Of a stretch of 64,000 bases of DNA, positions 10,587-63,421 are shown piece after piece. The notes below the pieces were generated by a model. The model was not told where the DNA came from. It worked only from the letters and a program-made list of their open reading frames with translations, and did not search any database. The DNA comes from Watersipora subatra (taxonomy: Eukaryota > Bryozoa > Gymnolaemata > Cheilostomatida > Watersiporidae). Made by a program: the position numbers and the translations under genes. Positions within the stretch are counted from its first letter, which is position 1; each line of letters begins with the position of its first letter. The stretch is from assembly GCF_963576615.1 (NCBI RefSeq), contig NC_088708.1, forward strand, positions 1,984,001 through 2,048,000, written 5' to 3'.

Positions 10587-10684
<98 letters not shown>

Positions 10685-11391
10685 TCTCAAAGTTTGTCCG
10701 TATGTGTATTTGTAGGATTGATTGTCTGGCTATAGCAATTATTAGAATACTTGTAGCTGGACAACAATGCAGACGCAAAGTCATAGCTTACCGCCATTTG
10801 AAGCCTACATGTATCTTATTCAGCAGCTTACTAGAATTTTCCATATGCAATGTGCCTGGCTAACAGTTTGAAAGTTACAGTTGTTTGACAAAGTTTTAAA
10901 ACCTTTACAGTTGTTTTTATTTTTCTCTCAATTTATTTCAACTACACGAAACACTTTTCTCATGATATGTAATTTGAAAGTTAGAATGGGAAATGTTGTT
11001 ATATGTTAAATAAAAATCAATTTTCTGTCCAAAGACTTTTTTATTACCTGAGCAACGCCGGGTAGCGCAGCTAGTATATATACATATATATATATATATA
11101 TATACATATATATATTTGAAAAATTATTTCGAAAAAAGTAAACTTTTAGTATTTGCGTTACAAATTTGTTTCGTGCGAAGCACTCCTCAGACGCGATTGT
11201 ACTAAAATCCTCAGACGCGATTTTAGTACAATCGCGTCTGAGGAGTGCTTCGCACGAAACAAATTTGTAACGCAAATACTAAAAGTTTACTTTTTTCGAA
11301 ATAATTTTTCAAATATTTCATACTCCACTAATAATCTTTTAGGTTTTTAGTGTAGAGTTCTCTTTTTATATGCTTTTGCACTTGCTTTCAG

Positions 11392-11446
<55 letters not shown>

Positions 11447-17400: not shown

Positions 17401-20400
17401 TAGCATTTGCCAGAGAGGGAGAGATAAATTATCCTTCATTACAACAGCTGACATTGACCAATTTGGATTTTATCCAAGTCTTAAAAGACAAACTTAAAAG
17501 CAAACCTAAAAGCAAACTTTAATCTTTAACTTAACGTAATTAAAATTTCTTCGGCGTTCATAGTTTTAAGTTTCTCGCTGGTTAGCTAATTTTGTTTCGC
17601 TCTCACGACCAGCCGGCTGTTTTAAGAGAAACCTATCTAAGGACGTTTGCCTTTGTTGCCCTTTCAACGTGTTGCGATCAGGACGAACACAAGTGTCGTC
17701 ACCAAGGATTAATGCACGACCACTAGCCAACTTGTCCGAATGTCTATTTTTTATAGTCTTGATAGATAGCACCGGCCTTTTTACGTAGCATCGTTTCAGT
17801 TACACCGTCACCGGCCAATTGTTTGTCTTTTATCTAAAGCCTGAGCAGTCTCTCTATCAGCGGTCATGAAGATCGCTGCGTCGTTTAGAAACTATGGTTA
17901 GTCCTTTTGCAAACTAAATGCATTGAATATAATCCTTGTGTTTGATAATTGTGGATGTATTTCTGTCATATTGCTGAGCTAGCTCAATCACGCATACATA
18001 TTTTGCGTATTTTTCAATAATTTTTCGTTTAATATCAATTGTTATCATTCACTTTTTCTTTGCATTATCTATCCTTTTACTGGCAAACTTTCGGTCTACG
18101 CACGGTACTTTTAATTAACACAATTCAGCACTGAAAATCGCACACAAAAAACATGGTACAAAAGTATAATCTGAGCAGTTGAAAAATACAGAGTGATGCT
18201 GTTCTCATAAAACACCTCCGACATACTTGGCAACTGACTCATGTGCTTGTATCTCAAACATGGCTCGTATGTTAGTGCTAAAACTTGCTTGAAAGCTGGC
18301 TCATATCTCAAAATTCCCATACGTTAGGGCACGCGTAAGTTGAAGTATTACTGTATAAAAGTTTTACATATTTTCAATAAAATATGCAGTCTCAGATGCA
18401 CAAACTATGGAAAAATTGAGCAGTCTTTAGTGCTAAGTCAATAGGAGTTAATAGATCAGCTGATTCGCTTTGCACATCACCATGACGTTGCGTCATGCTA
18501 ATTATAGGCCTCACTTGTTTTGATTATTCGCATATCTAGGGTTTACTATATCTATGGTATAAACTATAACAGATACAGCATTACTAGACAGTTCCGGAGA
18601 CGTGTTTGCACTATTAGTCTGCCCAAAAACATTAGTTACATGAAATAAGCTGAAATGGTTATAAACCCTCCCATCTTTTTGCCTCTCTCTTTGTTATTTG
18701 TACGTAGTTTTGTACACAGTTTCAACTATTCTGGTGTTTGTAATATGACCTATTTATTCTCAAATTGTGAGATGGAATGGAGAAAGAATGTGAAATTCGC
18801 TCAAAATAGGCTGAACTTAATGAATTGTTTGACCTCACCTGTTTAGTCTTGCCTGACAAAGTTGTTACTACCTATGAAGACAAGTACTGGCAGGTGAGAC
18901 TAAATCCTCAACAGTAAATACAGCCACTGTCTTTGAGGTTTTTAATATCACTTACCGATGTGCCTCTGTCCGCAAACTTTAACCCGAGTTCTCTACATAC
19001 GACCATAGCCTCAGGTAGCCCCCAGCCAGTTGGACAGATGGTTCCAGCTGCAGAATTACTGAGATGAACATTGACATAGCCTTCTGAAGGGTTTCTTCCG
19101 CCTAATAGCTCTATTGATTTTATTCTCTGCAAATCACAGACGAGATGTACTTTAACAGTGACACCCGTTAGCCTCAGTGTTTATTCTGTTGACACATTAC
19201 TATTTAGAATCGCTCTAATACTGGAGCCCTGCTTATCTGTGAACCCGAGGTCTGCTTGGCTCTTAAGCCTGAGCCCTGTATATTTGTAAGGCTCAGCTAT
19301 ACATAAAGCTGGAGTAAACGCCGGATGAAAAAAAAAAGAAGAGAAATATCAATGCTCTGGTTTATACTTATGATGAGCAATAACAATCACGCATTCATGT
19401 GAAATAGAAATGCTTGACATTCAGTTTTTGTGCTTTGTCATGATTGGCTGGCTGGTTATTAATGAGCCAGTTTTAAAATAAAATTCAAAATGCATTGACA
19501 GAGGCAAATTGCATACATTTAATGTATCAAAAAATGAGTTGTTGTAAAATAATATGACGTCATTTAGAATAAAATATTATTCTGTTATTTTTTTGTTATT
19601 CAGAATAACATTTTTGCATTTGGAACATCATACTAAAACTAAACAGTTTGTATTACGTGACACCTTTCACACCACACCTGTATACTTTTTACAAGTGGGT
19701 AATCCAAAAGCATCCTTACTATAAATCAATTGTACACATAGCTACACAAATGCAATATGACATATTTAAATTCATATCGAAAGCTCAAGAGTGCTATTAC
19801 ACTATATAATAGCTTTCTAAATGCTGGAAATGATCTACTGTTTCATTATGTAAGTCTAATCTTTTACATCGACTTTCTAAAAACATTTGTGGATTTGCCA
19901 GACTGACATGCATAAAGACGATAAAAATATTTCATACCGCTTGGTCTCTGTTAGTTGGGGCCTCCGGGTTTATTGGGCGAGGAGCAGTAGAAGGAGATTC
20001 TCTTGGATTGACAGCTTCATCACTTATGACGGCCATTTTAATGCGTGTGTTGTTAGTGCTGAGGCTATGTATTGACTTTCGTGGAGCATAAGCAGGTCTA
20101 ATAGTCCTTTGTGGATCTTCTCCTAAAAAATTAAGCTAATTTGCTCAAATATACTCTGATGATGAAATTATGCTTACAAAGTACCTCATGGAGAGCAACT
20201 CTATTAGATAAGGGCAACTCTATTAAATAAGGGCAACTCTATTAGATAAGGGCAACTCTATTAAATAAGGGCAACTCTATTAGATAAGGGCACGGATGCT
20301 ACTTACTCTCAAAAAGCTGTTCTACAGGAGGTGCAGGGCTGGCTGTTGTAGAGAACACAAGAGGTGACCTTGCAGGAGTAGAAACCGGTGCTGGTGCGGT

Positions 20401-21566
20401 CACATTGGGCTTGCAAATGACACCTGCGGCTTCTTTTAGTTCACAATTATGCCGCTTCCATGGAGCATGTCGACATGCGCCTAGGTTCTGCTCGAAGCCC
20501 CGGCACTTGACATCATCCAAGAATATCATACCTAAAAAGGAGGTCAGAAGGCTAGTCGCTACGCTACGCATTTACTTTTGCTATTCCATTTTCTTTTGCT
20601 AGTCTATCTCACGCGTCTCAACTGCTAGTAGCAAATAATTTGCTACTAGCAGTTGAAGTTGAAAGATGAAAATTACATCCGTACTGATCGCCGAGCAAAA
20701 GCGAGTAAACTACGCCTGATCAGCGACAATTAAATGGCTACATAATTGCTTACAGCATTGACGCTGCCAAATTGTGACTTGAGGAAGTCATCAGTATTCA
20801 ATAGCTTGCCAACTGCTACCCTGTAGCCAAGGTTTACTATACTAGAATTATGCTGCCAGCTAAGGAAGGCTGACGGTTAATTGATACGCTTTACAACTCA
20901 TAGATTAAAAAAGTGGACAGTATTTAGGTAAACAAACAGAGCGTCAGAAACATTCTAAATATGGGGTTAAATATATACTTAGATATGTACAATGGAGGCA
21001 GTTACAGTGTTGTTGATATATTGAGCAATTATCAGACTTATTCAACTTTTACAAGAAATGTGCTCTGAATAAAACAACAGTCAACTCTCTGTCGCTGCTG
21101 ATAAGGTCACAAGTATCTCACAGGTTTCTTACCATTTCTAGAAGCGTTGAAGTAGTTAAACTTGGTTACTCTTTGCAGCCCGGGAAACCCAAGCTGTCTA
21201 CAGATGACGTTGCCAGCCCGTGCGTTCCAACCATCGTCGCAGACGAGGCCCCAGTGGGTTCCACGCTTGACATTCACATTTCCTTCATGTTGCCCTCTAA
21301 AAGCGTAAAGATGATTTCTGTGTGTGTTAAATAATAATAACTGAGTCATGATTATTCTTGTTTTCATGCAGCCTGAACTTTTAAAAAAATAATCATTAAA
21401 ATGCCATTACATAAAATCCTCCATCAAGCCTCATACCTGATTTGTCAATGTTGAAAGAACATAATTTAACCAACCTTCCTCCAACGAGTCTCACGGTAAC
21501 CTGCTCAGCTAGACAAGCGGAGACAGCTAGTGAGTGGACAAGCCAAAGGACTCCACACCTCGTCAT
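6889..21566 (-). CDS. LOXL: Lysyl oxidase-like protein, two SRCR domains, 3'-incomplete in window
   Basis: Seven exons with matching phases give 382 residues: 21475-21566, 21133-21296, 20307-20531, 19938-20122, 18956-19126, 9260-9410, 6889-7046. In order: hydrophobic signal peptide (about 1-22); SRCR1 (about 25-125) with six cysteines (50, 63, 95, 105, 115, 125), the group A pattern; Ser/Thr/Pro-rich linker (126-222) with NVT and NNT sequons; SRCR2 (about 225-327) with cysteines 253, 266, 297, 307, 316, 327; then the start of the lysyl oxidase domain (331-382) with [12 protein letters not shown], the counterpart of the family's AAEENCLAS motif. LOXL proteins are secreted copper amine oxidases that oxidise lysines of collagen and elastin. 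The His-rich copper site and the lysine that forms the quinone cofactor are not in the seen exons, so the gene should continue past the left edge. Vertebrate LOXL2-4 have four SRCRs; two resembles insect LOXL2. Family assignment is firm; orthology to LOXL2, 3 or 4 is not resolved. Confidence 0.85.
7635..8008. repeat. 11 bp minisatellite (CCCTGGTCTCA), about 34 copies
   Basis: The array begins with TTCTTAACCTG variants and becomes homogeneous CCCTGGTCTCA in the middle (7760-7890). Lies in LOXL intron 6. Confidence 0.95.
9260..9410 (-). CDS. LOXL: LOXL exon 6: second half of SRCR2
   Basis: The minus strand encodes [20 protein letters not shown], then [11 protein letters not shown] and KVAGVICTD, the C-terminal half of an SRCR domain with four cysteines (297, 307, 316, 327). 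Acceptor TTGTTTAAG, strong donor GTGAGT. Phase 0 in matches exon 5; phase 1 out matches exon 7. It has no ATG of its own. Confidence 0.9.
10589..10682. repeat. (TA)n microsatellite
   Basis: About 94 bp of uninterrupted AT dinucleotide. It creates a spurious poly(Ile-Tyr) frame on the minus strand. Confidence 0.95.
10936..11074 (-). mobile_element. Fragment of the 22.5 kb inverted-repeat element family
   Basis: Reads inverted as a copy of 22543-22670: CTGCGCTACCCGGCGTTGCT, then the shared stretch about a TTTGGACAGAAAATTGATTT block, ATAACAACATTT and ATATCATGAGAAAAGTGTT. Truncated; (TA)n follows its end. Confidence 0.65.
11114..11314. mobile_element. 201 bp near-perfect palindrome (foldback MITE)
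   Basis: The arms begin ATTTGAAAAATTATTTCGAA and mirror each other out to the last base, around a 9 bp spacer near 11214. Both strands therefore encode almost the same peptide, which explains the twin open frames here. No clear TSD: the left flank is TA repeat. Probably a hairpin MITE in LOXL intron 5. Confidence 0.75.
11394..11444. repeat. (TA)n microsatellite
   Basis: About 50 bp of AT dinucleotide; a shorter interrupted tract is at 11072-11116, next to the palindrome. Confidence 0.9.
11966..12013. repeat. Hexamer repeat CCTTAG/CTTTAG
   Basis: About eight copies of CCTTAG with CTTTAG variants. Close to, but not, the telomeric hexamer. Confidence 0.85.
12278..12310. repeat. Perfect 15 bp hairpin
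   Basis: TCAATGTCACCAAGA, a 3 base loop, then its exact reverse complement. Confidence 0.85.
12341..12539. repeat. TATACTGTATA compound microsatellite
   Basis: TA repeat interrupted by CTG at irregular spacing; gives Ile-Tyr-Cys-rich artefact frames on both strands. MITE copy 1 is inserted at its right end. Confidence 0.9.
12540..13660. mobile_element. TA-flanked MITE, copy 1
   Basis: Inverted ends CAGTCAAACATGGATAACTC, flanked by TA inside TATA-rich microsatellite on both sides. The length is 1121 bp. It shares its ends and internal blocks (ATAACTTG, GTGACAGTGCTCTGATAA, CGGTTGTT, GCCCAACAGC) with 42566-43275 and 48534-49428. TA duplication and CAGT ends fit the Tc1/mariner-pogo group. No transposase is seen; the 80-residue frame at 13319-13561 is not protein-like. 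Sits in LOXL intron 5. Confidence 0.8.
12862..12981. mobile_element. 120 bp palindromic hAT-like MITE nested in MITE copy 1
   Basis: A near-perfect hairpin: CACGGGTTAGCCGGGTCA at the left pairs with TGACTCGGCTAACCCGTG at the right, and the inner arms TTTTCGCCACGCACATACAA pair across a short loop. ATGAATAG flanks both ends (12854-12861, 12982-12989), an 8 bp duplication as made by hAT transposases. Just to the right, 12993-13027 holds a second short hairpin (TTCCGACGTTGATTC arms). Confidence 0.8.
14780..15420 (+). pseudogene. P element (THAP9-like) transposase C-terminal remnant
   Basis: Open from 14826 to 15233: [20 protein letters not shown] is followed by [20 protein letters not shown] and [11 protein letters not shown]. 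These match the P-type transposase C-terminal core (FxxGF, LTYKxSQDHxELxFxxxRxxGGWNNNP). Just upstream, [13 protein letters not shown] and two stop codons (TAA TAG) precede this stretch in the same frame. Near a T run at about 15215-15225 the frame shifts, and homology resumes as [11 protein letters not shown] and [10 protein letters not shown] to IAAEKCLRS. Stops, the frameshift and the missing N-terminus (THAP domain and most of the RNase H-like part) mark it as dead. Confidence 0.75.
15744..17029. mobile_element. hAT-type non-autonomous element nested in the P element
   Basis: The ends are CAGGGGTGTCAAACTCAT and, inverted, CACAGGTGTCAAACATAT, followed by the GGGCCAC/GGCCCGC stretches common in hAT elements with this terminus. 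ATATAGAA is duplicated on both sides (15736-15743, 17030-17037), the 8 bp TSD of hAT. No transposase was recognised in the 1286 bp. Confidence 0.85.
17108..18353 (-). mobile_element. Tigger/pogo-like element nested in the P element
   Basis: The ends are CAGTCATAATTCGACTTACG and, inverted, CAGTAATACTTCAACTTACG, with partial similarity continuing inward. TA flanks both sides. The element is 1246 bp. On the minus strand at 17566-17772 is a frame ending [16 protein letters not shown] plus a short basic tail, which looks like the extreme C-terminus of Tigger/pogo transposases. It is probably an internally deleted copy. Confidence 0.6.
17566..17772 (-). pseudogene. Possible Tigger/pogo transposase C-terminal scrap
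   Basis: It is a 68-residue frame with [19 protein letters not shown] near the end. A QTSLDxFF-like motif often closes Tigger/pogo transposases. No DDE residues or CENP-B DNA-binding domain are seen in the 1.2 kb element. Its place inside a TA-flanked element with CAGT ends supports the reading, but the match is short. Confidence 0.35.
18956..19126 (-). CDS. LOXL: LOXL exon 5: first half of SRCR2
   Basis: It encodes [20 protein letters not shown], then [20 protein letters not shown] and [12 protein letters not shown], an N-terminal SRCR half with its two cysteines (253, 266). Acceptor TTTGCAG, donor TCG before GTAAGT, phase 0 at both ends. The other half of the domain lies 9.5 kb away, across an intron loaded with transposons. 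Confidence 0.9.
19938..20122 (-). CDS. LOXL: LOXL exon 4: Ser/Pro/Thr-rich linker
   Basis: It is an open 185 bp stretch between a TTTTTTAG acceptor and a GTATGA donor. Phase 1 in and phase 0 out fit exons 3 and 5 exactly. The peptide is low complexity with basic and proline-rich parts (for example [16 protein letters not shown]) and an NNT sequon. No domain is recognised; support comes from phase and position between the two SRCR domains. Confidence 0.65.
20194..20290. repeat. 19 bp minisatellite, 5 copies (LOXL intron 3)
   Basis: Unit GCAACTCTATTAGATAAGG alternating with an AAATAAGG variant, so the true period may be 38 bp. Confidence 0.9.
20307..20531 (-). CDS. LOXL: LOXL exon 3: second half of SRCR1 and start of linker
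   Basis: It starts after CCTTTTTAG and encodes [20 protein letters not shown], then a basic stretch and AAGVIC, the C-terminal half of SRCR1. It runs on into a Ser/Thr/Pro-rich stalk with an NVT sequon. It ends before GTAAGT with phase 1 at both ends. The 19 bp tandem repeat at 20194-20290 begins 17 bp past the donor. Confidence 0.9.
20619..20655. repeat. Perfect 17 bp hairpin (LOXL intron 2)
   Basis: CAACTGCTAGTAGCAAA, loop TAA, then the exact reverse complement. Confidence 0.9.
21133..21296 (-). CDS. LOXL: LOXL exon 2: first half of SRCR1
   Basis: It encodes [20 protein letters not shown] and continues [17 protein letters not shown], the N-terminal half of a group A SRCR domain (WGxVCDDGW and VxCRQLG motifs). 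Acceptor CGCTTTTAG, donor ATG before GTAAGA. Phase 2 in, phase 1 out, matching both neighbours. Confidence 0.9.
21475..21566 (-). CDS. LOXL: LOXL exon 1: signal peptide
   Basis: The ATG at 21566-21564 opens [20 protein letters not shown], a short N-region, hydrophobic core and small residues typical of a signal peptide, followed by [10 protein letters not shown], the first strand of an SRCR domain. The exon ends GGAGGAAG before GTTGGT, phase 2, and AG plus the A of exon 2 makes the expected arginine. It is too short to show as an open frame on its own and was found by reading upstream of the SRCR exon. Confidence 0.8.
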
Positions 21567-22542
21567 TATGTAGCTGAGAGTTTACTTTATGATGAAAATA
21601 ACTGGCTCTACTTTTGATGCTGCCCCTGCTGCCGCTTGGGGCTGTTATTAGATAACGAGTGCTGCAGTTTACACGTTACCTATTATTATATAGCCAATAG
21701 TTGGCAGGCTAGCTATATTAGATACATGTGTTGGATATTACCTGACTACATCAAGGTACTTAGTTGACATCAGCTGCCGCGACGCTGGCAAATAGTGAAT
21801 GTACTTTTCTTAGAAATCATTTTTAAAGAATGAGATAAGACTCGTGAACATCCTGAGAAAGTTATGAAGTCTGAAATGTTAACAGAAACAGTTGGGGTTC
21901 AGGAGAGTGGAACTGGCTGAATACTAATTCAAAGCACACCTAAGCACCTGTTTAGCAGACGACGCCCGTGTCGGTCTTTGGGGGCCCTCTTTAGAGTCGA
22001 CTTGTGATAACCTCAACAAAGCTGCATAGTAGTGAGAAAAAGAGAGAGATGGCTTACGTAATAAATGATTAACATCTGTTTCTGCAAATAAAAGCCTTTT
22101 TTTTCTTCTGAATTGCTAATTACTATAAGCAATGTAGAGACGATACACATAAGAATAGCTGATGTCTGTTGAAAACACGTCTGTAAAGTTCGACACAATT
22201 GCTAGTTGTTAAGATGTTATTGCAGAGTTATCAATACTAAAGAATTCAGTGTTTCTTGTTTAGTATTTCCTGTATGAGCGATAACCTTTCGTACTTTCTT
22301 ATCAATGATATCCAACTAGAAAAAAGTAAAATCTATCTTAACGCAAAAGCCTTATCAGCAAGCCCTGGGAACACAGTACGGCTTTTGTCAAGTTGCGCTG
22401 ACTGTTCTTATACATGTATGTATTTTTAGCTTCGCTATTATTGGTTGCACAAGCGAGTTGGAAAAATTTTTTTCAGTTAAATTTTGTGGCTGCTGGTTTT
22501 AGCTATTCAAAGCTGTGACTGTTTGTTTTAATTATATAAAAC
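21567..22542. other. 5' flank of the LOXL gene
   Basis: No TATA box or other promoter element can be assigned with confidence. Minus frames here are short and unrecognised. Confidence 0.4.
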
Positions 22543-26389: not shown

Positions 26390-28790
26390 ATAGCACCAAC
26401 AATACTTGAAGCGCCTACCCAGTGTTTACATTAATTGTAGCACTCCAGCTAAATGTAGCCCACAAATAATGACACTAAGCAAATTAATATAAGATGTTGC
26501 ACTTTTCTTGGAATGAGAGAGTGCCTTTGCCATGAGTAACAACCAATTTCTATGAAATGAAAAATTCGAAGAAAACGATACCAATAGATATTTATGTTCT
26601 ATTGATTGGTGAGAAATAAGCCCTGGTTTCAAGATGATTAAACAGTACAACACACGCATCTGGTTCTAGTTAAGGCTGACCGAGTTATTTTTTGCTTTTT
26701 GAGGCAGCATAACGGAATTTAGTCAGAGTTTTGCAGCAAGCGTATGAAAGCAGACGTGTGAAAGTCTTCTTATGAGATTCATTGATGAGCTCTCATTGGC
26801 ACAGTTTAGCTTGAAAGCATAAAATAGTTTATTCTAATATATTATATTTTATAATATAATATCATAATCTATCACATCTTATCATATCATTTTTATTGTA
26901 TTATATTAATATATTGCAATAAAACATGGGCATAATTTAATTCAATTTAAGCATAATGAACTAAATCATGATGATAACATGAATAATTAAAATTCATTCA
27001 GCTGTCCAGGCGGCAAACAATATCTAGCAGGCCTTCCATTTCTAGTTAAGTTTAAGTATATTCCTGTTCTTCATATTTTGTTCTGTATTCATACAGAAAA
27101 CTATCTTTATAGTTTAGCTATTCAGAAAAACAACTATTATATATAGTATATTAAAGTGATAACATAAATATAACATATTCTGTTACAATGCTACATATAA
27201 TTATGTACTATAGTAATATAACAGATCCTAGTTTAATCTGTTATGTAATGTATTATTTTGTTTTGTGCTATATGTAAATACTTATCTGGGGTATTTATCA
27301 TTATTTTGCTCAGCTGTTGGATGAATTACAGTAAAACCAATATGTTTTTATAAGAACATTTGCTTCAACATACAATGCAAATATCGGAGCAGATTAATTC
27401 ATATCTGGAGATTTAATTATTCTGCACTGTCCACAATATGGTACGGTAGTATACACGCAGATGACCAACTGGTATCGTGCTGCGAGTACAGCTAATTGTC
27501 TGGGGAGTGATTCTGATGGGCAACATGTCCACATCACTCACCAATCATGTAAACGAGTATCTAAGGGAGGTTGTCCTCTCTTAGATACTGATTAGATCAC
27601 AAATGCGTATGCAGCATCAAATCAACAAAATTAAAACAAAAACAATGTTTTACCAAAATAGAGTTTTACATCATGCATATTTATAATGATTTCACATCAT
27701 TAATTGTTCGCTTATTATATAACAGTAATATTTTTCAGCACTACCAGAAGATCCTGTATACATAGTTCTTTTTATAGATATAATATAATAGGCTAAACAT
27801 TTATTACATATATAGGCCTATATATAACAAATATATATAGATATTTATTATATCTATATTATAATTATAATAAATATATTATAATAGATATAATAAATGT
27901 AGGTTTATTATATCTATGGGTCTTTTAAATGATGAAATGTCTATAGAACTCTGTGACAATTGTTTTTTTGGAAAGATACCGCTTCATATCTCTAGGAAAT
28001 CAGAATTTGGGTACAAAATACAGATTTGAACAAAGTCTACGTTAATCAAAGAATTTGAAAAGGAATAAATGAAGTTTCCAATTTTTGTTCATTATGTGTC
28101 CTTATTTGATGTTTCCCGCTTTAGTAGCAGTCAAAAACAAAATAGCAACGGTACCCAAGGTTGCTTGTGTACCTGTGTTAGCACTTGAAAACTGACAGAG
28201 TATCAGTGAAAGTTGGCTGGCTATATAGACCAGACTAGAACTAATTTCTATTTCCTTTTGCACTTACCTCGCCATTCCAGCAAGCCCTAATTCCTTTCTT
28301 AATTTTTACAAATAAGAGTATGACCTAATTTTATGTTTTAATCATATTTTAATTACCTCTGTAGTCCAGTCAATCATACTTTATCTATATAAAGTGTTTC
28401 TCCATTTCGATTCCACAAATACCTGTTCAGTCTAATCTGTTTAAAGAGTCATTGTACCTTTGCTAATAATAAGCATTTGACGTACAGTACCTGTTCCACG
28501 CATTACCTCTAATAGACATTCCTTAAGGCTGAACGACAGGCCATCAATCAGCTGTTAAAACGGTGACACTAACGTTGAGACTTCGTAATCTCCATCCTTT
28601 TCTCTGTATTAGCTCCATATTACTCTTGCTTCTGGGAAAAGCATTAATTTGTTTTTTGTAAGTTATTTTAAGCCTAATTGGCAACTTTAAAAGAAAAATG
28701 GCTGAATTACATGTATCTCTCATTAAAATAGCGATGTGACAAATTTTTCGAAAAATTGTTCTGTTGCGGCTTATGGTAAAACAATGCCGT
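26390..28790. other. AT-rich intergenic DNA, nothing recognised
   Basis: Contains AT-only stretches at about 26820-26940 and 27780-27920 with short inverted TATTATAAT motifs. No coding frame or known element seen. Confidence 0.5.
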
Positions 28791-28794
28791 ATAA

Positions 28795-29945
28795 GATGAC
28801 AACATCTCTTATGGTGAAACTACACTGTATAAGATGATAATATATCTTATGGTAAAGCTACACTGTATAAGATGATAATATATCTTATGGTAAAGCTACA
28901 CTGTATAAGATGATAATATATCTTATGGTAAAGCTACAATGTATAAGATGATAATATATCTTATGCTAAAGCTACACTGTATAAGATGATAATATATCTT
29001 ATGGTAAAGCTACACTGTATAAGATGATAATATATCTCATGGTGAAGCTACACTGTATAAGATGATAATATATCTTATGGTGAAGCTACACTGTATAAGA
29101 TGATAATATATCTTATGGTAAAGCTACACTGTATAAGATGATAATATATCTTATGGTGAAGCTACACTGTATAAGATGATAATATATCTTATGGCAAAGC
29201 TACACTGTATAAGATGATAATATATCTTATGGTAAAGCTACACTGTATAAGATGATAATATATCTTATGGTAAAGCTACACTGTATAAGATGATAATATA
29301 TCTTATGGTAAAGCTACACTGTATAAGATGATAATATATCTTATGGTAAAGCTACACTGTATAAGATGATAATATATCTTATGGTGAAGCTACACTGTAT
29401 AAGATGATAATATATCTTATGGTAAAGCTACACTGTATAAGATGATAATATATCTTATGGTAAAGCTACACTGTATAAGATGATAATATATCTTATGGTG
29501 AAACTACACTGTATAAGATGATAATATATCTTATGGTAAAGCTACACTGTATAAGATGATAATATATCTTATGGTAAAGCTACTCTGTATAAGATGATAA
29601 TATATCTTATGGTAAAGCTACACTGTATAAGATGATAATATATCTTATGGTAAAGCTACACTGTATAAGATGATAATATATCTTATGGTAAAGCTACACT
29701 GTATAAGATGATAATATATCTTATGGTAAAGCTACACTGTATAAGATGATAATATATCTTATGGTAAAGCTACACTGTATAAGATGATAATATATCTTAT
29801 GGTAAAGCTACTCTGTATAAGATGATAATATATCTCATGGTGAAGCTACACTGTATAAGATGATAATATATCTTATGGTAAAGCTACACTGTATAAGATG
29901 ATAATATATCTTATGCTAAAGCTACACTGTATAAGGTGATAATAT
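28795..29945. repeat. 38 bp minisatellite, about 30 copies
   Basis: Unit contains AAGATGATAATATATCTT (imperfect palindrome), then ATGGTAAAGCTACACTGTAT. Highly uniform, with few substitutions. Confidence 0.95.
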
Positions 29946-32732
29946 ATATTTTGCTAAATGTTAGGTATTAGGATTATAATACAAATTATTTTTACTGGAT
30001 TTGATATCCTGGATACAAAAAACAATGTAAAACTGCAGACATATTTTAATCATAAACCCAAACAATTGTTGGAAGGTCTACAAAATTGTCAAAACTTAAT
30101 CATGGGTCGGCTGCTGACATTGGAGTTGTCTTTTCTATTTCTGTCCAAACCAGGAAACTATTGTTTTATGAAAACAGGTATAAAACACTTTATTTTAATG
30201 CGTGATAAGCCCATGGATTGACCTGCTACGGTATTGTTTTGTGGCTAACAACAAGATGTCAGTCATCCCGTGCTCTAAAGAGCTTCCGCAGAAACAACCG
30301 CCATTTTCACACGAGCAGCGCTGTAAATTTCGGGTAACATGGTGATGCCTTTATCAGGCTCAAAGTTGTGCTGTACGCTCAACCAGGTCTAAATATCAAT
30401 TAATCGATTCACTATTTTGGGAGGAAGTACAATATGAGCCTCACCTTCAAAAGGTATTTTTGTTGTTTGGAAGAACACTGTTTAATTGAAAGTGAGAAAC
30501 TGGAAATTTCCAGGTTTTACTTAAAATTTCATGAGTTGATCTGCATTCTACATTTGTTAATTGCTGAGATAGGCACAAAGTCAGTTACGTCTCAGTAGCT
30601 TGCCTTGCTTCAAAAGAAGCCATAGTTCTTATAAAGGTATTACGAAGTGTATGTAGAGCAACCCTTACTTACGGTTTAACCTTTCAGCTCACTCTCTCGC
30701 TAGCGCAAAGCGCCTTATCCAGAGCGGTGAACAAATATTGTCACCTCCGAGTGACAAACCATGTGCTCAAGGTATGAATAGGCTGGGTGCTATAGGTTTT
30801 TACTTACATTTACAGGAAGTGTATTAGTCCTACTATTTCTTCCACAGCGTCAGCTCTAGTCGGTCGCCTGTAAATGACGAACAGAAAAGGTCATCCTATC
30901 CATATTAACAATGCAAACAAACAGTATCCACACTTCATCACTTCTTGCAAGAATTGCAGCTCGTAGCAATTATTGTTAAAGGTCAGCTACTCATTCTTTT
31001 TTCACATCTCTGTATCTTAGACCTTCGCTCCTTCCAACTCTAGCCAAATAATCGCATCTTTTCTAACCAAACTTAGGTAATTGACTGAAGATGAGCACAC
31101 GACTTCAACTTGATACTACCTGAAAGCAAAGATTTTGTATCTTTGTTCAATGCCAGCCATTCATCGACTTACAGTTTATAAGTTCTAGTCAAAGTTATGA
31201 CAGAGATACTCGCTTGAACTTTGTACGATGTAGTCACTTTCTGTCTGTGTTCTAAGTGTCACAGAAAGGGTAGAGAGGTGGGTAAGTGTGACCAATGCGT
31301 CACTTAGAGATATCATTACAATAACAAGAGATAGACATACATTGTAAGTAGGGCATTGTAAGTAGATGCCAAGTTAAATATGTAAAAAGATAAAGCTCAT
31401 GATAACAGTTTTTCTATTCACATAAAATGAGACCTTTTCCTATATATGTTTACAAACTTTACACTAAACACCCATTCGTGCGCTCTTGTAAATGCAAGAA
31501 ATAGAGGTGGAATCGGTGTTGCGTCTTGCCTCACATCCTGCGACAGCCTCTCTCCTCTGCAACTTCATTTGGGGTAAAATGAAGGTGAACTGAGTGCAGT
31601 TTATGCAGCTTCTAACAAATGACCGTAGTCTTGTGCAATGTGATGATAGATGACATGGAAAACAAAGCTGGAATTATTGGAAAATCAGTTGCTATTTTTA
31701 CTCTTTAAAATGTGCCAAAATATTTTGGCAAGTAACATACGGAGAGTTGTGGATGGCATGAGCTAAGGTCTTTCTATCATAATGGCATTTTAAAGTGTTA
31801 GCTGGTCAAATCTTCTCTCCTTTTAGCAGGAGATTATTATCAAATATACTACTGGCAGCTTTGTCTCCTGCTGCCAAAACTTTAAAATTAAGCTGGAACA
31901 TGAAGACATTAAGTTATTATTTAGTAAACAACTGGCAGCTGCTGCCAACCCGTGTGCTTCTATCAATTCTTACATCATCTTCAACAGAAAATAATTTATG
32001 TTCATGGTTGAGCACAGAAATATCTTGGAGTTTCTGTTGTCCATTAAACTCATTAATTAGATTTTATAAGAAGAAACCTTTTCTCGTCTTTCTATCGCTG
32101 CTAAGGAGAGCTTGTGTCAAGGTTAGTAATATAGATGTACACATAGAAATACAAAATAAGACGTGGATCTTCCATGAGATTATGGATCGTATGTAAAGAT
32201 GGAGTCTTAAACTACTTCTTGAACATAAGCGAACAAGGGAAATGCAAACAAGCTTCCTTTAGAGGGAGATGATCATATTATTCGCATATAAATCGAAACG
32301 GCAATGACAGCGCATGAGCTGTCATGCAGGTGCACTGCTGGAATACCGGCACATCAATATGTCACTTTTTAAATGATGATTCAAAATTCTTGTGTTATAC
32401 AATCAGTGTAATTGTAACTATAAGGATGTTGAATCTTTAGATAAATTATACGAGTAATAGATTTATTTTCACTCTGATAACCCTGAATCCTCTTCAGGCA
32501 GACCAGACTGCATTCAATCATTATCCTTATCCCGACCATTCAGGTCATAATCCAGAGATGCGTGTCTAACAGTACATGCATCTTAATACCGACTATAAAA
32601 TCAACTAATAATGAAGGTTGAAGATAAATAATTTAACTTAATATAACTATTATGTTATATTGTTTGCGTCATAATCACACTTATATATAGCAATTAAATT
32701 TATTTATATTTGTCGGAAGAGGACACAGCCTA
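29946..32732. other. Intergenic DNA, no supported gene
   Basis: Open frames at 29958-30221 (87 residues) and 31795-32196 (133 residues, plus strand) show no recognisable domain. The latter has two alternative frames with partial openness and could be old transposon debris. Confidence 0.4.
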
Positions 32733-33281
32733 ACCTCTTTGGTAAGACCTGGCTCTTTGGTAAGACCTGGCTCTTTGGTAAGACCTGGCTCTTTGGTAAG
32801 ACCTGGCTCTTTGGTAAGACCTGGCTCTTTGGTAAGACCTGGCTCTTTGGTAAGACCTGGCTCTTTGGTAAGACCTGGCTCTTTGGTAAGACCTGGCTCT
32901 TTGGTAAGACCTGGCTCTTTGGTAAGACCTGGCTCTTTGGTAAGACCTGGCTCTTTGGTAAGACCTGGCTCTTTGGTAAGACCTGGCTCTTTGGTAAGAC
33001 CTGGCTCTTTGGTAAGACCTGGCTCTTTGGTAAGACCTGGCTCTTTGGTAAGACCTGGCTCTTTGGTAAGACCTGGCTCTTTGGTAAGACCTGGCTCTTT
33101 GGTAAGACCTGGCTCTTTGGTAAGACCTGGCTCTTTGGTAAGACCTGGCTCTTTGGTAAGACCTGGCTCTTTGGTAAGACCTGGCTCTTTGGTAAGACCT
33201 GGCTCTTTGGTAAGACCTGGCTCTTTGGTAAGACCTGGCTCATTGGTAAGACCTGGCTCTTTGGTAAGACCTGGCTCATTG
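32733..33281. repeat. 18 bp minisatellite, about 30 near-identical copies
   Basis: Unit CTCTTTGGTAAGACCTGG, almost without substitution; two copies near the right end have CTCATTGG. An 18 bp unit keeps frames open on both strands (LVRPGS and SQVLPK peptides), which are artefacts. Confidence 0.97.
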
Positions 33282-39732: not shown

Positions 39733-39859
39733 ATGATTTTCTATCTCATCAAGAACATAGGCATGGCTGCTCAATATGTCTCCAGTTGGACAGCACACGT
39801 CTCCAGCAATCGTTTAAACGCGACGACTGACCTTTCCAAGAAATACGTTCTGATCACAG
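39733..39859 (+). CDS. SDR exon 1 (coding part)
   Basis: The exon probably begins at 39657, after the strong acceptor TTTTCTTCTCCACAG. ATG at 39733 opens MIFYLIKNIGMAAQYVSSWT and the exon ends at KKYVLITG before GTATGT, phase 1. An upstream in-frame ATG at 39613 would apply only if that acceptor is not used. Confidence 0.8.
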
Positions 39860-45800: not shown

Positions 45801-48800
45801 ATCTTCTATTAGTCATAGGTATATGCACAACTATTTTACTCTTCTGATAGAAAAGGATTTCAAATAATTGCATATGTGTGACCGTTGAAGGGATTAGCTC
45901 TCTCTCTCTCTCTCTCATTACAGAAATGAGGAGTCTTTGCTTATCTATGACCAGTTTTGGTAACATTATTAAAAGTGAAAAGTTTGGTGAAAGGAAACAC
46001 AGAAAGTTTTTTATAAGAAATTTCTGAATGACACAAGTAGAGAGCAATCTCGACTCCGTCATTTGTCTGCAGACTCTGAATATGAAACCTATTGTAGCAT
46101 TGATCACATACTGTTATTGATAGCGAATTTCCTAGCTCTACCTTATGTCTATGTATGTTTCCTTGACTGCAATTATCTCGCCTCTGCAGGCTGATTTCTG
46201 CTGCACTTTCAATGCAGTAAAATGTTTGCAAATTTCCAACTTGTCACTTTAATCAATGGGGGGAGGGGTGTTTAAATGCAAATACATTAGAGCTGTTGTG
46301 ATAGGCCAGCCAGCCACCTGTGATGCACTCCATACATTGTGACAACATCCATACGTCTCTAACATTAGGTTGTGACAGAGGTCTTGGATATGAAATCGCC
46401 AAAGCATTGGACCGTCATGGGTTCTCTGTGATAGCTGGCTGCTTGGAAGTGGAGACAGAGAGTCTACGAGAGTTGAAGGATAGAAGTCTAACCAACATGT
46501 CCTTGATGAAAATGGATGTGACCAGTCATGATGACCTTGAGAAGGCTAAGGAATGGGTAGATAAGAATATGCAAGGAGGTAAAGCACACAATAAAGAATT
46601 GAATTCTATTGATAGAGAATAGAGACCAGTGCTCCGAATGGCTTCCTTTATATCAACAATGACTTTAGTTTGACCCCTCGCTGCCAGCTGGTTGGTCACA
46701 CCATTCTTTGCATTGTCAGCGGAACCTCCAGCAACTACAAGCCTAAAAAGCAAGATGAAAAGCACTATGCAAAACACCTTAACAAAAAGCTCTTCTCATA
46801 ACAGTATTATCGTAGTATGTGCTATTTTTAACACAAAACCCGTTGTGTGTTCTACATGGCACTTTGAAAAAGTATTTACCAATTCGCTTTAAATTTATAA
46901 AACGAATTGTGCTGAGTTCTGCCATTGGCCATTGATATTGATTATTGGGTATTTGTTGTGACTGGGCCACAACAAACGATGTTAAACTTTATGCTGATTG
47001 ATTTGGTACCAAAGCCTTTTTATGGGCTTTCTAGTTCAGATGTTATGATTTATATGCCTTAAATGCTAGGGTTTATCAAACATTTAATTATGTCCTAGTA
47101 AAAAACATTTAGTATCATTACCATAGTATCCAACTAAGAATTGACTGTAGAGCCGTGAGACCTCAATGAGTTTCATGAAACGTTGCTCAGCATTCTTATA
47201 TTATTTGACAGAGCTGTGGGGAGTTGTGAACAATGCTGGTGTCTGTTTCTTTGGCACCCCAGAGATAATGGCACAGAGTGATATCACCCGACTGGTTGAA
47301 GTCAACCTGCTTGGTCCCATCAATGTCATAAAGAAGTTTCTACCGCTAATTCGACGGTCTGAAGGCAGAATTATTAACATTGGATCTCTTAATGGTGAGA
47401 AAACACGATATTTATCAGACTGACTAATGCCCTTCTGCTACTCACTAGGCTAGCCTTCAGCCTGCCTCGAGTCGGCTCTGAGCTGAAACATTTTTATGTG
47501 TTCAAAATTCAAGGTCGTCATAGGAAAACACGAGGAGGCGTTGATTAATTTGTAGATAATCCCTCTAAAACATGAATTATGGGTATTCCTAGCGGATAGA
47601 GTATTTACGGAATGTGTGAACCAAGTGTGATATTATTTTTGAAACATGTAAATGTTAACCGCAATCAGAAAACTAATCTGGTAATTGTTGCAGGTGATGT
47701 CTGGTAATTGTTGCAGGTGATGTTCTGGTAATTGTTGCAGGTGATGTTCTGGTAATTGTTGCAGGTGATGTTTTAGTAATTGTTGCAAGAGATGTTTTGG
47801 TAATTGTTGCAGATGATGTTCTGGTAATTGTTGCAGGTGATGTTCTGGTAATTGTTGCAGGTGATGTTCTGGTGATTGTTGTAGGTGATGTTCTGGTAAT
47901 TGTTGCAGGTGATGTTCTGGTAATTGTTGCAGGTGATGTTCTGGTAATTGTTGCAGGTGATGTTCTGGTAATTGTTGCAGGTGATAGTCTGGTAATTGTT
48001 GCAGGTGATGTTCCGATGCCATATTTCTCAGTCTACAACAGCACAAAGGCTGGTCTCAAGGTATTCACGGAGAGTCTGTCCCTCGAGCTTAAAGACTGGG
48101 GAGTCAAGATGAGCTTGATAGCGCCGTCAGCATTCAAAACAGGTGCTGCCTGCTGCCTCATGCTCGGCCCTCATCACTTAGGTCACCCAACTGCTACACA
48201 AAGCCTCAGTTCATAATAGTCTGACTCTTTCCTCAATTCTATCTTATCGCTTATGTCCGATCTGTTTAAATTACAGGCTAGAGTAAGCTCTCAACACCAA
48301 AATGATCCGCCCTCCTACATGCCGTTCGATTGTTTTCATAAGGCTGATTTCAAGTAGAACTGTTCCTTCAATGCCTGAAATTTTTGGTATAAAAGCATTT
48401 GAACATTTTTTTAGGTTTTTATTCATAAATTTTGCTACACATTTTACTTTTATTTAAGATTTCCATAACATGTCTTTTTAGATAGTGAATGAACCACGGC
48501 AAGACTGCTACTAGCTTCTTTTGCTTCTTTATACAGTCAAACATGGATAACTCGTCCACGGATAGCTCGTCCACGGATAGCTCGTCCACGGATAACTCGT
48601 CCACGGATAGCTCGAACGCATGGATAACTCGTCCACGGATAACTCGTCCATGGATAACTCGTCCACGGATAGCTCGTCCACGGATAACTCGTCCACGGAT
48701 AGCTTGTCCACGGATAGCTCGTCCACGGATAGCTCGTCCACGGATAACTCGTCCACGGATAGCTCGAACGCATGGTTAACTCGAACGGATATGTTTGGTC

Positions 48801-51724
48801 CGTTCCCACGCAATAATAAATTGCTTTAGATAACTTGAACTTACCATCATTAACTCGAACAGTTTTTGCCCAACGGCTACCGAGACGGTTGTTATCAACT
48901 TAGAATATCACTTTATTCCAAGCCGTAGAGATAAACATCAACTTTTAGTAGTTTTTAGGCGTCATTGTTACCGCCATCGGCAAAATATTTTCATTAACGA
49001 ATTTTCTAAATGTTTGCAAAAGGTCAAACTTTTACCAGACATCCGCTTTGCGATGGCCTCTCAAAAGCAGGGAAAAGCATAGAAACCTTTGAATAAACTT
49101 GAAGCAAAATCGGCAAAATTGATCTTGGTTAAAACGCCACTTTTAATATGAAAACGTTCTGGCAGTCACATCACATAAAACAACAAACAAATCTCAAGTG
49201 ATAGAAAAATATTTATACTTTCTGATGAAAAATTTTTAAACTTTACACGAGAGGCCCTTTAACTAGCAACAAGCAATCTATGCTTTTAATTTATATATAG
49301 TTTGTATATGCACATGTATCTACTGATAAATACATGCACTCGTGACAGTGCTCTGATAACTTGTACGCTCTGAAAACTCGACCAATTCTGCTCGGTCCCG
49401 TGAAGTTAGAGTTATTCGTTTTTGACTGTATATATATATATATATATATATATAGATTTTATTTGTGATTACCTGACACAGAGCTCTTGTTGGCAGTTAA
49501 TAATCTCCTGTTGCTAGTTACTAATTTTGCCAGTGTATACAAACAGACTTAATGTCAATTTACAAACAAAAACATAATATTGTAATATTTGTGAGAGAGT
49601 ACTCTACAAATAAGCACTGTAGTTTATTACTATAGCCAGTTTTCACCTCACACAAATCTTTTTCTGCTAGAATACCTCCTAGTTCATCCACAGCGCTAAC
49701 AAACATTTCCAATTCCCACGAGTTGCAGATTAGGAAAACTAAGAAAAACATGGTTTTCTACTTTGTAAATGTGTCAGAGTGTAACCTTGAAAGCAATGCG
49801 CAAGGGCGATTGATCAACAACCCATTCAACAGATTTATTTGTTTATCTTGTGAGGTTATTTTTCAAATAATGAGAGCTTGTTTGAACAAGAGAGGAATGC
49901 GTCTTGCAGTGACCTTCTTCCTTGGCCGAGTGATGCCATCTTTCATACAACAAACCAAATCAGCAACAATCAACTGCCATCACCTTTTAAATTTGTTTGA
50001 CCTTGATGACTGTGACGTCATAAGACTTGGCTAGAAGTGACTTGCACCACAAAAATGTACCAAACTGGCAGTGTAATATCAACCCCATTAGACCACAGCC
50101 TTTTATTCCTGGTTGCAAATGAGAAGACTTCTGATAGCGAGCAGTTTTTTTGTTTGTTGATAGGAAATGCTTTGTGCCAGTAAACCAACTAAACATTATT
50201 AGATTTGCAAGTCATGTTGTGTTCAGCAAGTATATATATATATATACATATTTATCTCATAAATGATTTCAGATATCATTCAGTATGACAAGACTGCTTG
50301 CTCAAATAAGTGGTGGGCAGAAGCAAGTGTGGAGACAAAGAGAGACCATGGCAAGGACTTTTTCTCTATGCCTATGAGAGGTGAGTTGCTTTCATAAGAT
50401 AACATATACTTTTATATGTCTATGAAAGGGAAGTTGCCTCATCTGGGTAGGGTATATTCATCTCCTGAGAGTTGCGCTCTCTCATTTGAGTACCAGATAA
50501 ACTGAACTTGGTAGTGCTGAAGCTATTTGATATGCAATTATTTACTTAAAGGTTGACTTGCAACAAAATTCACATTACCGTTATTTGATATGAAAAGATT
50601 CACCATGTCTTACTCTGTTGTGTTGTAGGTGCAAAATATGTGAAAATGTGATTACAAACTCTTAAAAGCTCAAAAACGAACAGTTAATCGCAGGCACACG
50701 AGACCGCTGTAGTTTGGATTCCCTTTCCAAAACGGCTCAAATGTGATGTAGTTGTGAGAGATGGTTTCTGTTTACACTTTCTTGCAACCTTATTCGTCGA
50801 AATATTTTCACAAATATACTTCACGCAGTCAATAAAACTATGTCTATTGTTCTTACGCGTCTGTTTTATCGTCATCGTAAGGCTGTCACTTTTAGCAGTG
50901 ATATCTTATAACTTACCGTAAAAATTCGTTTAATTTTTTAGCCTTAGCTTGAAGGAGTACATATCATTGTCTGATAATCATGACGAGCCTGTTAGTCACT
51001 TGTGATAATCGAAAAGTGCTGCAGAAATTATTTGCGAAGTATTGGGTCACATGATCAGATTACGACTTGCCGATTAGACGAGGCCGAAACAAAACTGTAA
51101 AGTAGCGAGCATCTATATTTATACGGCGTCTTCGGTAAAACCCGAAGTGTTTGTCATAAACTAGTGCTACGATAAGTTTGATATTGAGCTTTGATTGGCC
51201 TTTTAACTCACGTGAGAACATCACGTGACAAGACAATAACCAAACTATCATGACTACGTCAGAGAAATAAAGAGATTCCAATCTACGGCGGCTTTTCGTT
51301 TTTGAGCTTTTAAGAGCTTGTAATCACATTTCCACATATTTGGCACTTACAACACAACAAAGTAAGACATGGCGAATCCTTTGATACCAAATAACTGTAA
51401 TGTGAATTTTGTTGCAAGTCAACCTTTAACTTATAACAAAAACAAAGAATAGAGAGATTATATTGGGTAACTCGGCTGTCATTATTGTTATTTCTAGAAA
51501 GCCGAAGAATGAACGTGAGTGATGATTATTCTCCTGTGACTGACTCAGTTTTACACGCGCTCACCTCCAACTCGCCTCGGGACGTCTACAGAGTAGGACA
51601 GATCGCCACGCTGCTGCCAGCCCTTTGCATATACATGCCTAGGCAAATAAAAAACTATATCTGTGGGACCGTGCTTAATTTTGCTGCAACCAGGCCAGTT
51701 GGAGTCAATAACAGACCAGAATAA
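39733..51724 (+). CDS. SDR9C-type short-chain dehydrogenase/reductase (retinol/17-beta-HSD-like)
   Basis: Six exons, all joined in phase 1, give 330 residues: 39733-39859, 46369-46578, 47212-47394, 48005-48142, 50273-50380, 51498-51724. An N-terminal hydrophobic stretch (likely membrane anchor) precedes the Rossmann fold with TGCDRGLG (42-49, NAD(P) binding), MDVTSHDD (the conserved DVT), NNAG (119-122), catalytic Ser171 in INIGSLNG and YNSTK (Tyr184, Lys188). The C-terminal third, with VTDSVLHALTSNSPRDVYRVG and a proline-containing hydrophobic segment, is characteristic of the SDR9C family (RDH5/RDH16, HSD17B6, DHRS9, BDH1), which oxidises retinols or hydroxysteroids at the ER or mitochondrial membrane. 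Length fits the family (about 315-345). The acceptor before 39657 implies at least one upstream leader exon; ATG 39733 is the first in frame after it. Substrate cannot be told from sequence. Confidence 0.88.
40682..40785. repeat. CGAGTGACAAG tandem stretch and CTCGT-rich tail
   Basis: Irregular CGAGTGACAAG/GTGACA units to 40752, then pyrimidine-rich TCTCGTC repeats. SDR intron 1. Confidence 0.8.
41399..41985. repeat. 13 bp minisatellite (GGTGGTAGTGCCA), about 45 copies
   Basis: Uniform GGTGGTAGTGCCA units with CCA/CAA/CTA variants. The minus strand reads as His/Leu/Pro/Thr-rich artefact frames. SDR intron 1. Confidence 0.95.
42566..43275. mobile_element. TA-flanked MITE, copy 2 (SDR intron 1)
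   Basis: Starts CAGTCAAACATGGATAACTC and ends CGTGTTTGACTG, flanked by TA. Its internal blocks lie in inverse orientation to copies 1 and 3. The length is 710 bp. It lies in SDR intron 1. The 24 bp minisatellite at 43313 begins only about 40 bp past its right end. Confidence 0.8.
43313..44072. repeat. 24 bp minisatellite, about 32 copies
   Basis: Unit contains GACAAGTCTGTTACTGAGAC and TGTA or TCTA. The first half keeps the 24 bp period and thus an open 8-residue repeat (VDKSVTET), but 23 bp copies near 43720 and 43825 break it, so it is not a coding repeat. SDR intron 1. Confidence 0.95.
44884..45232. repeat. GAAT/GAGT tetranucleotide array
   Basis: About 350 bp of GAAT with GAGT at 3-6 unit spacing; the minus strand reads HSFIHSF in all frames. 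SDR intron 1. Confidence 0.95.
45441..45530. repeat. C-rich low-complexity tract
   Basis: CCACCCCCCC, CTACCCCTGG and a run of 14-15 C near 45515. SDR intron 1. Confidence 0.8.
46369..46578 (+). CDS. SDR exon 2: Rossmann fold
   Basis: Starts after AACATTAG and encodes GCDRGLGYEIAKALDRHGFS, VIAGC, then MKMDVTSHDDLEKAKEWV, completing the TGxxxGxG dinucleotide-binding motif begun in exon 1. Ends GGAG before GTAAAG. The intron before it is about 6.5 kb. Confidence 0.92.
47212..47394 (+). CDS. SDR exon 3: NNAG and catalytic Ser
   Basis: Starts after TATTTGACAG and encodes LWGVVNNAGVCFFG, then VNLLGPINVIKKFLPLIRRS and GRIINIGSLN, containing the NNAG structural motif and catalytic Ser171. Ends AATG before GTGAGA, phase 1. 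Confidence 0.93.
47678..48012 (+). repeat. 24 bp minisatellite spanning the exon 4 splice acceptor, 14 copies
   Basis: The unit reads CTGGTAATTGTTGCAG then GTGATGTT. Units start at 47678, 47701 (first unit 23 bp), then every 24 bp to 47989. Each normal unit carries TTGTTGCAG, the acceptor used by exon 4, and a donor-like CTGGTAAT. Twenty-four is a multiple of three and the repeat frame is open, so starting the exon at an earlier copy would add GDVLVIVA blocks in frame. One unit (47773) lost the acceptor (GCAAGA). Confidence 0.95.
48005..48142 (+). CDS. SDR exon 4: YxxxK active site
   Basis: Begins after TTGTTGCAG and encodes GDVPMPYFSVYNSTKAGLKV, then SLSLELKDWGVKMSLIAPSA, with Tyr184 and Lys188. 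Ends ACAG before GTGCTG. The acceptor and the first eight exon bases are the last copy of a 24 bp tandem repeat (47678-48012), so the exact start depends on which copy is used; 48005 gives a normal-length protein. Confidence 0.85.
48534..49428. mobile_element. TA-flanked MITE, copy 3 (SDR intron 4)
   Basis: Starts CAGTCAAACATGGATAACTC and ends CGTTTTTGACTG, with TA at both sides and a (TA)n tract to the right. The length is 895 bp, with the same internal blocks as copy 1. Its left end has been expanded into a 15 bp tandem array (48547-48775). Confidence 0.8.
48547..48775. repeat. 15 bp minisatellite inside MITE copy 3
   Basis: Unit GATAACTCGTCCACG, about 15 copies (AGC/AAC variants), directly derived from the MITE end, where copy 1 has it about once. 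Confidence 0.9.
50273..50380 (+). CDS. SDR exon 5
   Basis: Starts after ATGATTTCAG, encodes DIIQYDKTACSNKWWAEASV and DFFSMPMR, and ends AGAG before GTGAGT, phase 1 at both ends. It corresponds to the variable helical region after the active site. Confidence 0.85.
50550..51425. mobile_element. TTAA-flanked MITE, 876 bp (SDR intron 5)
   Basis: Inverted ends AGGTTGACTTGCAACAAAAT run about 135 bp (50550-50690 against 51293-51425), with TTAA on both sides (50546-50549, 51426-51429). TTAA duplication with AGG ends fits Kolobok or piggyBac superfamily elements. No transposase inside. It fills most of SDR intron 5. Confidence 0.8.
51498..51724 (+). CDS. SDR exon 6: C-terminus and stop
   Basis: Starts after ATTTCTAG and encodes VTDSVLHALTSNSPRDVYRV and GQIATLLPALCIYMPRQIKN, ending at TAA 51722-51724. 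The first motif is a hallmark of SDR9C proteins (VTDAxxHALTSxxPRxRY); the second is a hydrophobic segment as in membrane-associated members. Confidence 0.88.
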
Positions 51725-62746: not shown

Positions 62747-63421
62747 TCTTATTTTGCCCTTCTTGATGACACGTGTTGTAGATTTGCCCTTCTTGATGAC
62801 ACGTGTTGTAGATTTGCCCTTCTTGATGACACGTGTTGTAGATTTGCCCTTCTTGATGACACGTGTTGTAGATTTGCCCTTCTTGATGACACGTGTTGTA
62901 GATTTGCCCTTCTTGATGACACGTGTTGTAGATTTGCCCTTCTTGATGACACGTGTTGTAGATTTGCCCTTCTTGATGACATGTGTTATAGATTTGCTCT
63001 TCTTGATGACATGTGTTGTAGATTTGCCCTTCTTGATGACATGTGTTGTAGATTTGCCCTTCTTGATGACATGTGTTGTAGATTTGCTCTTCTTGATGAC
63101 ACGTGTTGTAAATTTGCCCTTCTTGATGACATGTGTTGTAGATTTGCCCTTCTTGATGACATGTGTTGTAGATTTGCCCTTCTTGATGACATGTGTTGTA
63201 GATTTGCTCTTCTTGATGACACGTGTTGTAGATTTGCCCTTCTTGATGACACGTGTTGTAGATTTGCCCTTCTTGATGACATGTGTTGTAGATTTGCTCT
63301 TCTTGATGACATGTGTTGTAGATTTGCCCTTCTTGATGACATGTGTTGGGGATTTGCCCATCTTGATGAAACGTGTTGTAGATTTGCCCTTCTTGATGAC
63401 ATGTGTTGTAGATTTGCTCGC
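62747..63421. repeat. 30 bp minisatellite, about 22 copies, many with an E-box
   Basis: Unit contains CCCTTCTTGATGACACGTGT and TGTAGATTTG. The first eight units carry CACGTG (an E-box) and many later ones CATGTG; a CTC variant of the first triplet recurs. Thirty is a multiple of three, so all six frames are nearly open and the 100-250 residue frames here are artefacts. Confidence 0.97.

Follow-up and report, generated by a model that had tools for sequence, protein, structure and literature searches.

A mirage-like 24-bp minisatellite across the exon 4 acceptor of an SDR gene in Watersipora subatra

In an SDR gene of Watersipora subatra, the acceptor of the active-site exon stands at the end of a tandem array. 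This raises the question of whether the array is a splice switch whose copy number tunes the amount of active enzyme, as a sequence-only reading had proposed, or a repeat that the gene tolerates. The window, meaning the whole 64,000-nt stretch that was analysed, corresponds to C1:1984001-2048000 of a 783.7-Mb, 239-contig assembly and was found there at one locus. On the minus strand of window positions 9249-21581, several ORFs resemble scavenger-receptor cysteine-rich (SRCR) exons by eye.

The gene and its array

Six exons were assigned on the plus strand. Exon 1 (39733..39859), with the first ATG as its probable start, ends in LITG at phase 1; its donor, ACAG|GTATG, was found by motif scan and the joined frame is open. 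Exon 2 (46369..46578), placed by a protein match (1-74) and bounded by AG/GT and frame, carries the cofactor motif GCDRGLG. Exon 3 (47212..47394), identified by protein match, motif and frame, holds NNAG and the catalytic Ser171 and ends at the donor AATG|GTGAGA. Exon 4 from its canonical start (48005..48142; GDVPMPYFSVYNSTK) contains Tyr184 and the Lys, and was placed by protein match and a Ser-Tyr spacing of 13. Exon 5 (50273..50380) was assigned from protein match and joined frame, and exon 6 (51498..51724), with the stop codon, by eye from the reading frame. Joined, the six exons give a single open reading frame of 330 aa, with AG/GT at 5 of 5 introns, all in phase 1. Classical SDRs carry TGxxxGxG, NNAG, Ser and YxxxK, and the corresponding TGCDRGLG, NNAG, Ser171 and Y184NSTK are present here. 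The joined protein is a full adh_short domain (PF00106, 151.2 bits against a cut-off of 26.6, E 3.2e-44), and the nearest PDB chain was DHRS9 (9b2f, E 3.4e-32; phmmer, with a provisional partial protein as query). We take it to be a classical SDR, DHRS9/SDR9C-like.

When 47394 is joined to 48005, Ser171 and Tyr184 are spaced by 13. The Ser-Tyr segment aligns to 2jah without gaps, while 1vl8 has one residue more and DHRS9 one less, and this fit to the aligned SDRs argues that 48004 is almost surely the ancestral acceptor. Intron 3 (47395-48004) measures 610 nt with its donor outside the array. With upstream acceptors, the protein would gain 8 to 96 residues between Ser171 and Tyr184, an insertion point that had been predicted correctly, the residue numbers being exact once the six exons are joined. 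A protein search of the species' own genome for paralogues, for comparison of intron positions, returned only four exons, all of the SDR gene itself. One paralogue exon (L034, PF00106), ending at a similar profile position, gave no useful boundary and the comparison was dropped.

The array was delimited with TRF at 47677..48013 on the plus strand (period 24, 14.1 copies, 93% matches, score 597), in agreement with the earlier description of the exon 4 acceptor as the last of 14 copies of a 24-bp repeat. Each unit combines 15 nt of intron end, TGGTAATTGTTGCAG, with 9 nt of exon start, GTGATGTTC. The array extends those 9 nt into exon 4, where unit identity ends, so that the exon boundary itself is amplified. 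Over the 12 units from 47717 to 48004, 10 of 288 positions depart from the consensus and seven units are perfect. The tandem repetition is far beyond chance: a search for the unit pattern in the 783.7-Mb genome, allowing up to three mismatches, gave 14 places, 13 in the array and one elsewhere with three mismatches.

Thirteen of the 14 copies keep the acceptor AG, with last bases at 47693, 47716, 47740, 47764, 47812, 47836, 47860, 47884, 47908, 47932, 47956, 47980 and 48004; the copy ending at 47788 reads CAA and has lost it. Copy-by-copy reading on the plus strand gave 11 upstream AGs in frame with 48004 (last bases within 47716..47980), at 11 of 12 steps, and a longest in-frame extension of exon 4 of 288 nt, or 96 aa, in steps of 8n residues. 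The claim that each usable copy from 47717 onward lengthens the exon in frame, up to 96 residues, therefore stands for these 11 sites, and lapses at the copy without AG. Likewise, the GDVLVIVA blocks it described are present, but are accompanied by RDVLVIVA, DDVLVIVA, GDVLVIVV and GDSLVIVA. The AG at 47693 (plus strand) is out of frame because the unit after it has 23 nt, one base short; reading on from it gives GGT GAT GTC TGG TAA, the stop that had been expected from the first copy. Away from the unit junction there are four stray AGs, of which 47776 and 47791 are in frame, and 47789 and 47987 are not. GTGAT follows the AG in 12 of 14 copies, of which ten read CAG|GTGATG, and the same number have at the repeat junction the AGGT of dual-specific splice sites.

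Branch points and the choice of acceptor

A candidate branch-point A at 47676 on the plus strand, assigned by motif only, lies in a CTAAT that directly adjoins the array start, at distances of 17 and 40 nt from the first and second AG of the array. It is the sole yTNAy match in 47659-48004, which confirms the branch-point-like motif remarked on just before the first copy. In splicing, the first AG past a short exclusion zone is favoured. Were A47676 the branch point, ordinary scanning would lead to 47693, 17 nt away, and to a frameshift, so that the enzyme would need either a branch point inside the array or a strong exon-proximal preference. Because the first AG after A47676 shifts the frame, the motif cuts against a simple switch; it also points to 47693 or 47716, and would in that respect count against a mirage with normal splicing.

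Inside the array, a TNAY motif scan gave two putative branch-point As for the last acceptor, A47971 and A47984 on the plus strand, 33 and 20 nt before it. Among the 12 units that begin at or after 47717, 10 have a TNAY A 20 nt ahead of their own AG; the other two are the AG-less unit and its successor, where the motif is missing. A second TNAY A falls 9 nt before the unit AG and about 33 nt before the following AG. In the last unit the stray AG at 47987 lies between A47984 and 48004. Eight upstream copies are identical to one another in the 20 nt before the AG, and the corresponding 20 nt before 48004 depart from them at only 2 bases. Nothing intrinsic therefore favours the last acceptor, and the choice would have to be set by position, perhaps together with enhancers in exon 4. 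RNA structure hiding the early AGs was considered and rejected, as the fold of 47660-48040 does not stand out (z -0.82, matched or bettered by 20 of 100 shuffles).

Junction arrays and splice motifs in the genome

Splice junctions were surveyed at 81 other exon loci, namely 18 SDR, 50 kinase (from 142 kinase places in the genome listing) and 13 ALDH. Left out were the SDR gene itself (L037) and L039, which duplicates the ORF of L024; L035 and L036, which have a flank in common, both count among the 81. Frame and motif served to place the exon ends by eye. Two of the 81 loci carry an array on a splice donor. At L029, an SDR exon on the minus strand (C2:76362617-76362838), a 29-bp unit made of 21 nt of exon end and 8 nt of intron start is repeated 27 times. 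The unit carries GG|GTATGTT, with the exon end at ...GTGACTAAGG|GTAAGTTG; a GGGTA-type donor is kept in 18 of the 27 copies, and the 29-bp step would break the frame. At L049, a kinase exon (C4:13425722-13426204), an array of seven 45-bp copies has its start on intron base 1, reads GTGAGTATT there and forms tandem donors, GTGAG[T/A]ATTTG being matched by 5 copies. Arrays at L092 and L076 begin 17 and 19 intron bases in, respectively.

Compared with random placement, the two junction arrays were not a significant excess (1.0-1.75 expected, p 0.27-0.52), nor were the four counted when a wider margin was allowed (1.7-2.9 expected, p 0.09-0.33). As boundary arrays are no commoner than random placement would give, seeding of minisatellites at splice junctions is not proven; most simply, minisatellites are numerous in this genome and some of their arrays happen to land on junctions. 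Minisatellites with units of at least 10 bp repeated at least 5 times account for 15.5% of the window. By the same criterion they make up 4.4% of 171 kb in 50 exon loci (including own-gene L037, and with L039 overlapping another), so that the window is richer than the exon-loci sample. TRF also reported two very large minisatellites in the window, 22 bp x 99 at 3995-6169 and 38 bp x 31 at 28770-29958. A 30-bp x 22 array at 62753-63417 has one stop in the single minus-strand frame tried.

Splice motifs within tandem repeats were counted genome-wide. Tandem triples of the 5' splice-site consensus AGGTAAGT numbered 3595 against 265 for the reversed motif (13.6-fold, overlapping hits), compared with 40,052 against 28,856 for single occurrences (1.4-fold). 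A 10-letter version of the donor motif gave 280 against 17 (16-fold), and the acceptor-like TTTGCAGG gave 111 against 10, the latter without a single-motif background. Triples of two unrelated motifs with the composition of AGGTAAGT reached 1026 and 1023, which puts the apparent donor excess at 3.5- to 14-fold by hits. Motif hits overlap within arrays and one array can yield dozens, and few arrays lie behind them: hand counts of the part listed gave three donor arrays in the first 4.24 Mb of C1 and 16 AGATGTAG arrays on 79 Mb of C1. Scored with a donor matrix, 72 repeat units gave 25 at the lowest threshold against 18.5 in dinucleotide shuffles (8 of 200 shuffles reach this), and at higher thresholds 9 against 6.5 (41 of 200) and 3 against 1.9 (62 of 200). 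At C1:3480598-3483097 a 28-bp unit that contains AGGTAAGT is repeated about 90 times, and the 32 copies listed with their sequence read TACAG|GTAAGT, a fused acceptor-donor. In the window, TRF found 30 copies (99% matches) of an 18-bp unit with the donor-like TTTG|GTAAGA at 32735-33281.

Known systems and competing readings

NAGNAG tandem acceptors are in-frame alternative 3' splice sites that add or drop residues; they comprise two sites 3 nt apart, whereas the SDR array offers 13 sites at steps of 24 nt. The ratchet sites of recursive splicing are acceptors fused to donors, and the AG|GT of the array resembles them in that joining exon 3 to an upstream copy would create a donor anew. As judged from the DNA, however, the intron here is only 610 nt long and has many such copies where recursive splicing has one.

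Amphioxus mirages consist of units, many with AG/GT signals, repeated in tandem across an exon-intron boundary or duplicating it. The available text of PMC3087553 and PMC3902484 describes them in Adh3, the globins BflGb6 and BflGb9, and TnC, with similar repeats in PGBD5, and the hosts it names are cephalochordates only. Canestro 2002 is the founding mirage paper (reference 68 of PMC3087553), and the amphioxus microsomal retinol dehydrogenase gene is among the loci with similar structures (reference 69 of the same paper). According to the same portions of both papers, the BflGb6 mirage consists of an intron 3' end and the 5' part of the next exon and occurs in two haplotypes of 6 and 3 units; RT-PCR suggests that amphioxus mirages are regularly spliced, and the authors note that the repeated signals could act as cryptic sites. 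The SDR array likewise spans an intron end and an exon start, with AG/GT in its units, and covers the 48004/48005 junction as placed by frame and SDR alignment. Its 24 bp fall within the 10-160 bp given for mirage units in the available part of PMC3087553, but it comes as one haplotype seen in DNA, where amphioxus offers a range of unit lengths, two BflGb6 haplotypes and RT-PCR.

Other described repeats are more distant. In human UBC, a tandem dual-specific AGGT array yields stochastic isoforms with variable repeat number, according to the accessible part of PMC10809524. The UBC and VCX3A arrays treated there share with the SDR array tandem AGGT at junctions, in principle usable as 5' or 3' site, but in the SDR gene the array takes in the acceptor side only and the normal protein does not contain the repeat. 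Tandem duplication of AGGT has been described as a route to intron gain (PMC4974935), and human internal tandem repeats have been described (PMC2812944); as far as the accessible portions go, the raw material, duplicated AG|GT, is alike, while in the SDR gene an existing intron end is amplified. The accessible part of PMC4039745 describes a C. elegans 24-base minisatellite, CeRep25B, enriched near regions with several alternative-splicing decisions, which in principle would leave room for a regulatory role. A search of the literature on minisatellites, VNTRs and splice sites gave nothing closer by title or abstract.

We consider it probable that the array is a mirage-type minisatellite spliced mainly at the exon-proximal acceptor 48004, giving normal enzyme and possibly a minority of in-frame long transcripts. 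The 24 nt across the intron 3-exon 4 boundary would have been duplicated in tandem, and the duplicate would have grown to about 14 copies through slippage or unequal exchange; under such an origin, the expected copy-free form of the boundary is TGGTAATTGTTGCAG|GTGATGTTCC. Most units hold a complete, weak acceptor module, in which the TNAY As are followed by a few T-rich bases and CAG. Splicing most likely goes mainly to 48004 from a branch point within the final unit or the one before it, with help from exon 4. A minority of transcripts may begin exon 4 at an upstream copy and gain 8n residues, so low-level stochastic long isoforms are possible.

A selected switch, in which the number of repeats determines how much of the enzyme is the active short form, is, by comparison, very improbable, and this part of the sequence-only reading found no support. 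In its favour are the stop-free in-frame extension over 11 upstream AGs, the differing copy numbers of the amphioxus haplotypes and the position of CeRep25B in the sources cited above. The open frame is uninformative, however, since 0 of 72 single changes in the unit make a stop, and it was rejected as evidence. Selection on the in-frame extension was not detected among the 10 substitutions: four are synonymous by hand count against 3.1 expected, a neutral level (fraction 22/72, P 0.37; with transitions only 9/24, P 0.55). Periods in multiples of three are unremarkable, being found in 6 of 16 other window arrays (7 of 17 with the SDR array) in a hand-made list from which four sites of like size, A+T-rich or irregular (12344, 38917, 40683 and 55910), were left out. 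Scanning from the best branch point would meet an out-of-frame AG first, the 29-bp array at L029 would shift the frame at a donor, and amphioxus mirages are reported in the cited text to be regularly spliced.

Unregulated stochastic use of the copies as a dual-specific splice-site array, giving by chance a ladder of 0-12 extra octapeptides as in human UBC, would agree with AG|GTGAT in 12 of 14 copies and with the near-identical acceptor contexts, but we regard it as rather unlikely. The introns so spliced in PMC10809524 have both sites in the repeat and a length that is a multiple of the unit; here the donor at 47395 lies outside and 610 nt is not a multiple of 24. Moreover, longer forms, with 8n residues added between catalytic Ser and Tyr, should in most cases be defective enzymes, so that heavy upstream use should be selected against. 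A separate reading is a self-cleaning ladder of acceptors: splicing exon 3 to an early copy would restore the donor AATG|GTGAT, and further rounds to later copies would trim the repeat down to the last acceptor. This is conceivable because 12 of 14 units read AG|GTGAT (10 of them CAG|GTGATG), yet we hold it to be improbable; if true, minisatellite growth at exon starts would be nearly harmless at any copy number, and residual untrimmed products would form an 8-residue ladder in amounts set by copy number. Slightly less credit is due to an array that harms the gene, with default scanning from A47676 to 47693 and a premature stop making the allele largely non-productive. The 17 nt from CTAAT to the first AG and the immediate stop in that frame fit this outcome, whereas the six exons join in an open frame free of disabling changes, the internal TNAY sites at 20 and 33 nt are alternatives, and amphioxus mirages are reported without mRNA disturbance in the text available. 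That the array is truly exonic, with up to 96 extra residues of GDVLVIVA repeats in the mature protein, seems hardly credible: the frame is open from 47698 to 48216, but the insertion breaks a Ser-Tyr spacing that differs by at most one residue among three aligned SDRs, and the unit has an intron-like CAG ending.

With the tolerated mirage-type minisatellite as the preferred reading, the locus represents a known kind of accident at a splice boundary and no demonstrated switch. It provides a natural test case for how the spliceosome chooses among 13 near-identical acceptors about 24 nt apart, of which only one restores the normal enzyme, with the reading frame as a built-in readout. If junction arrays prove common beyond amphioxus, minisatellites would supply decoy splice sites generally, along with material from which introns could shift or be gained.
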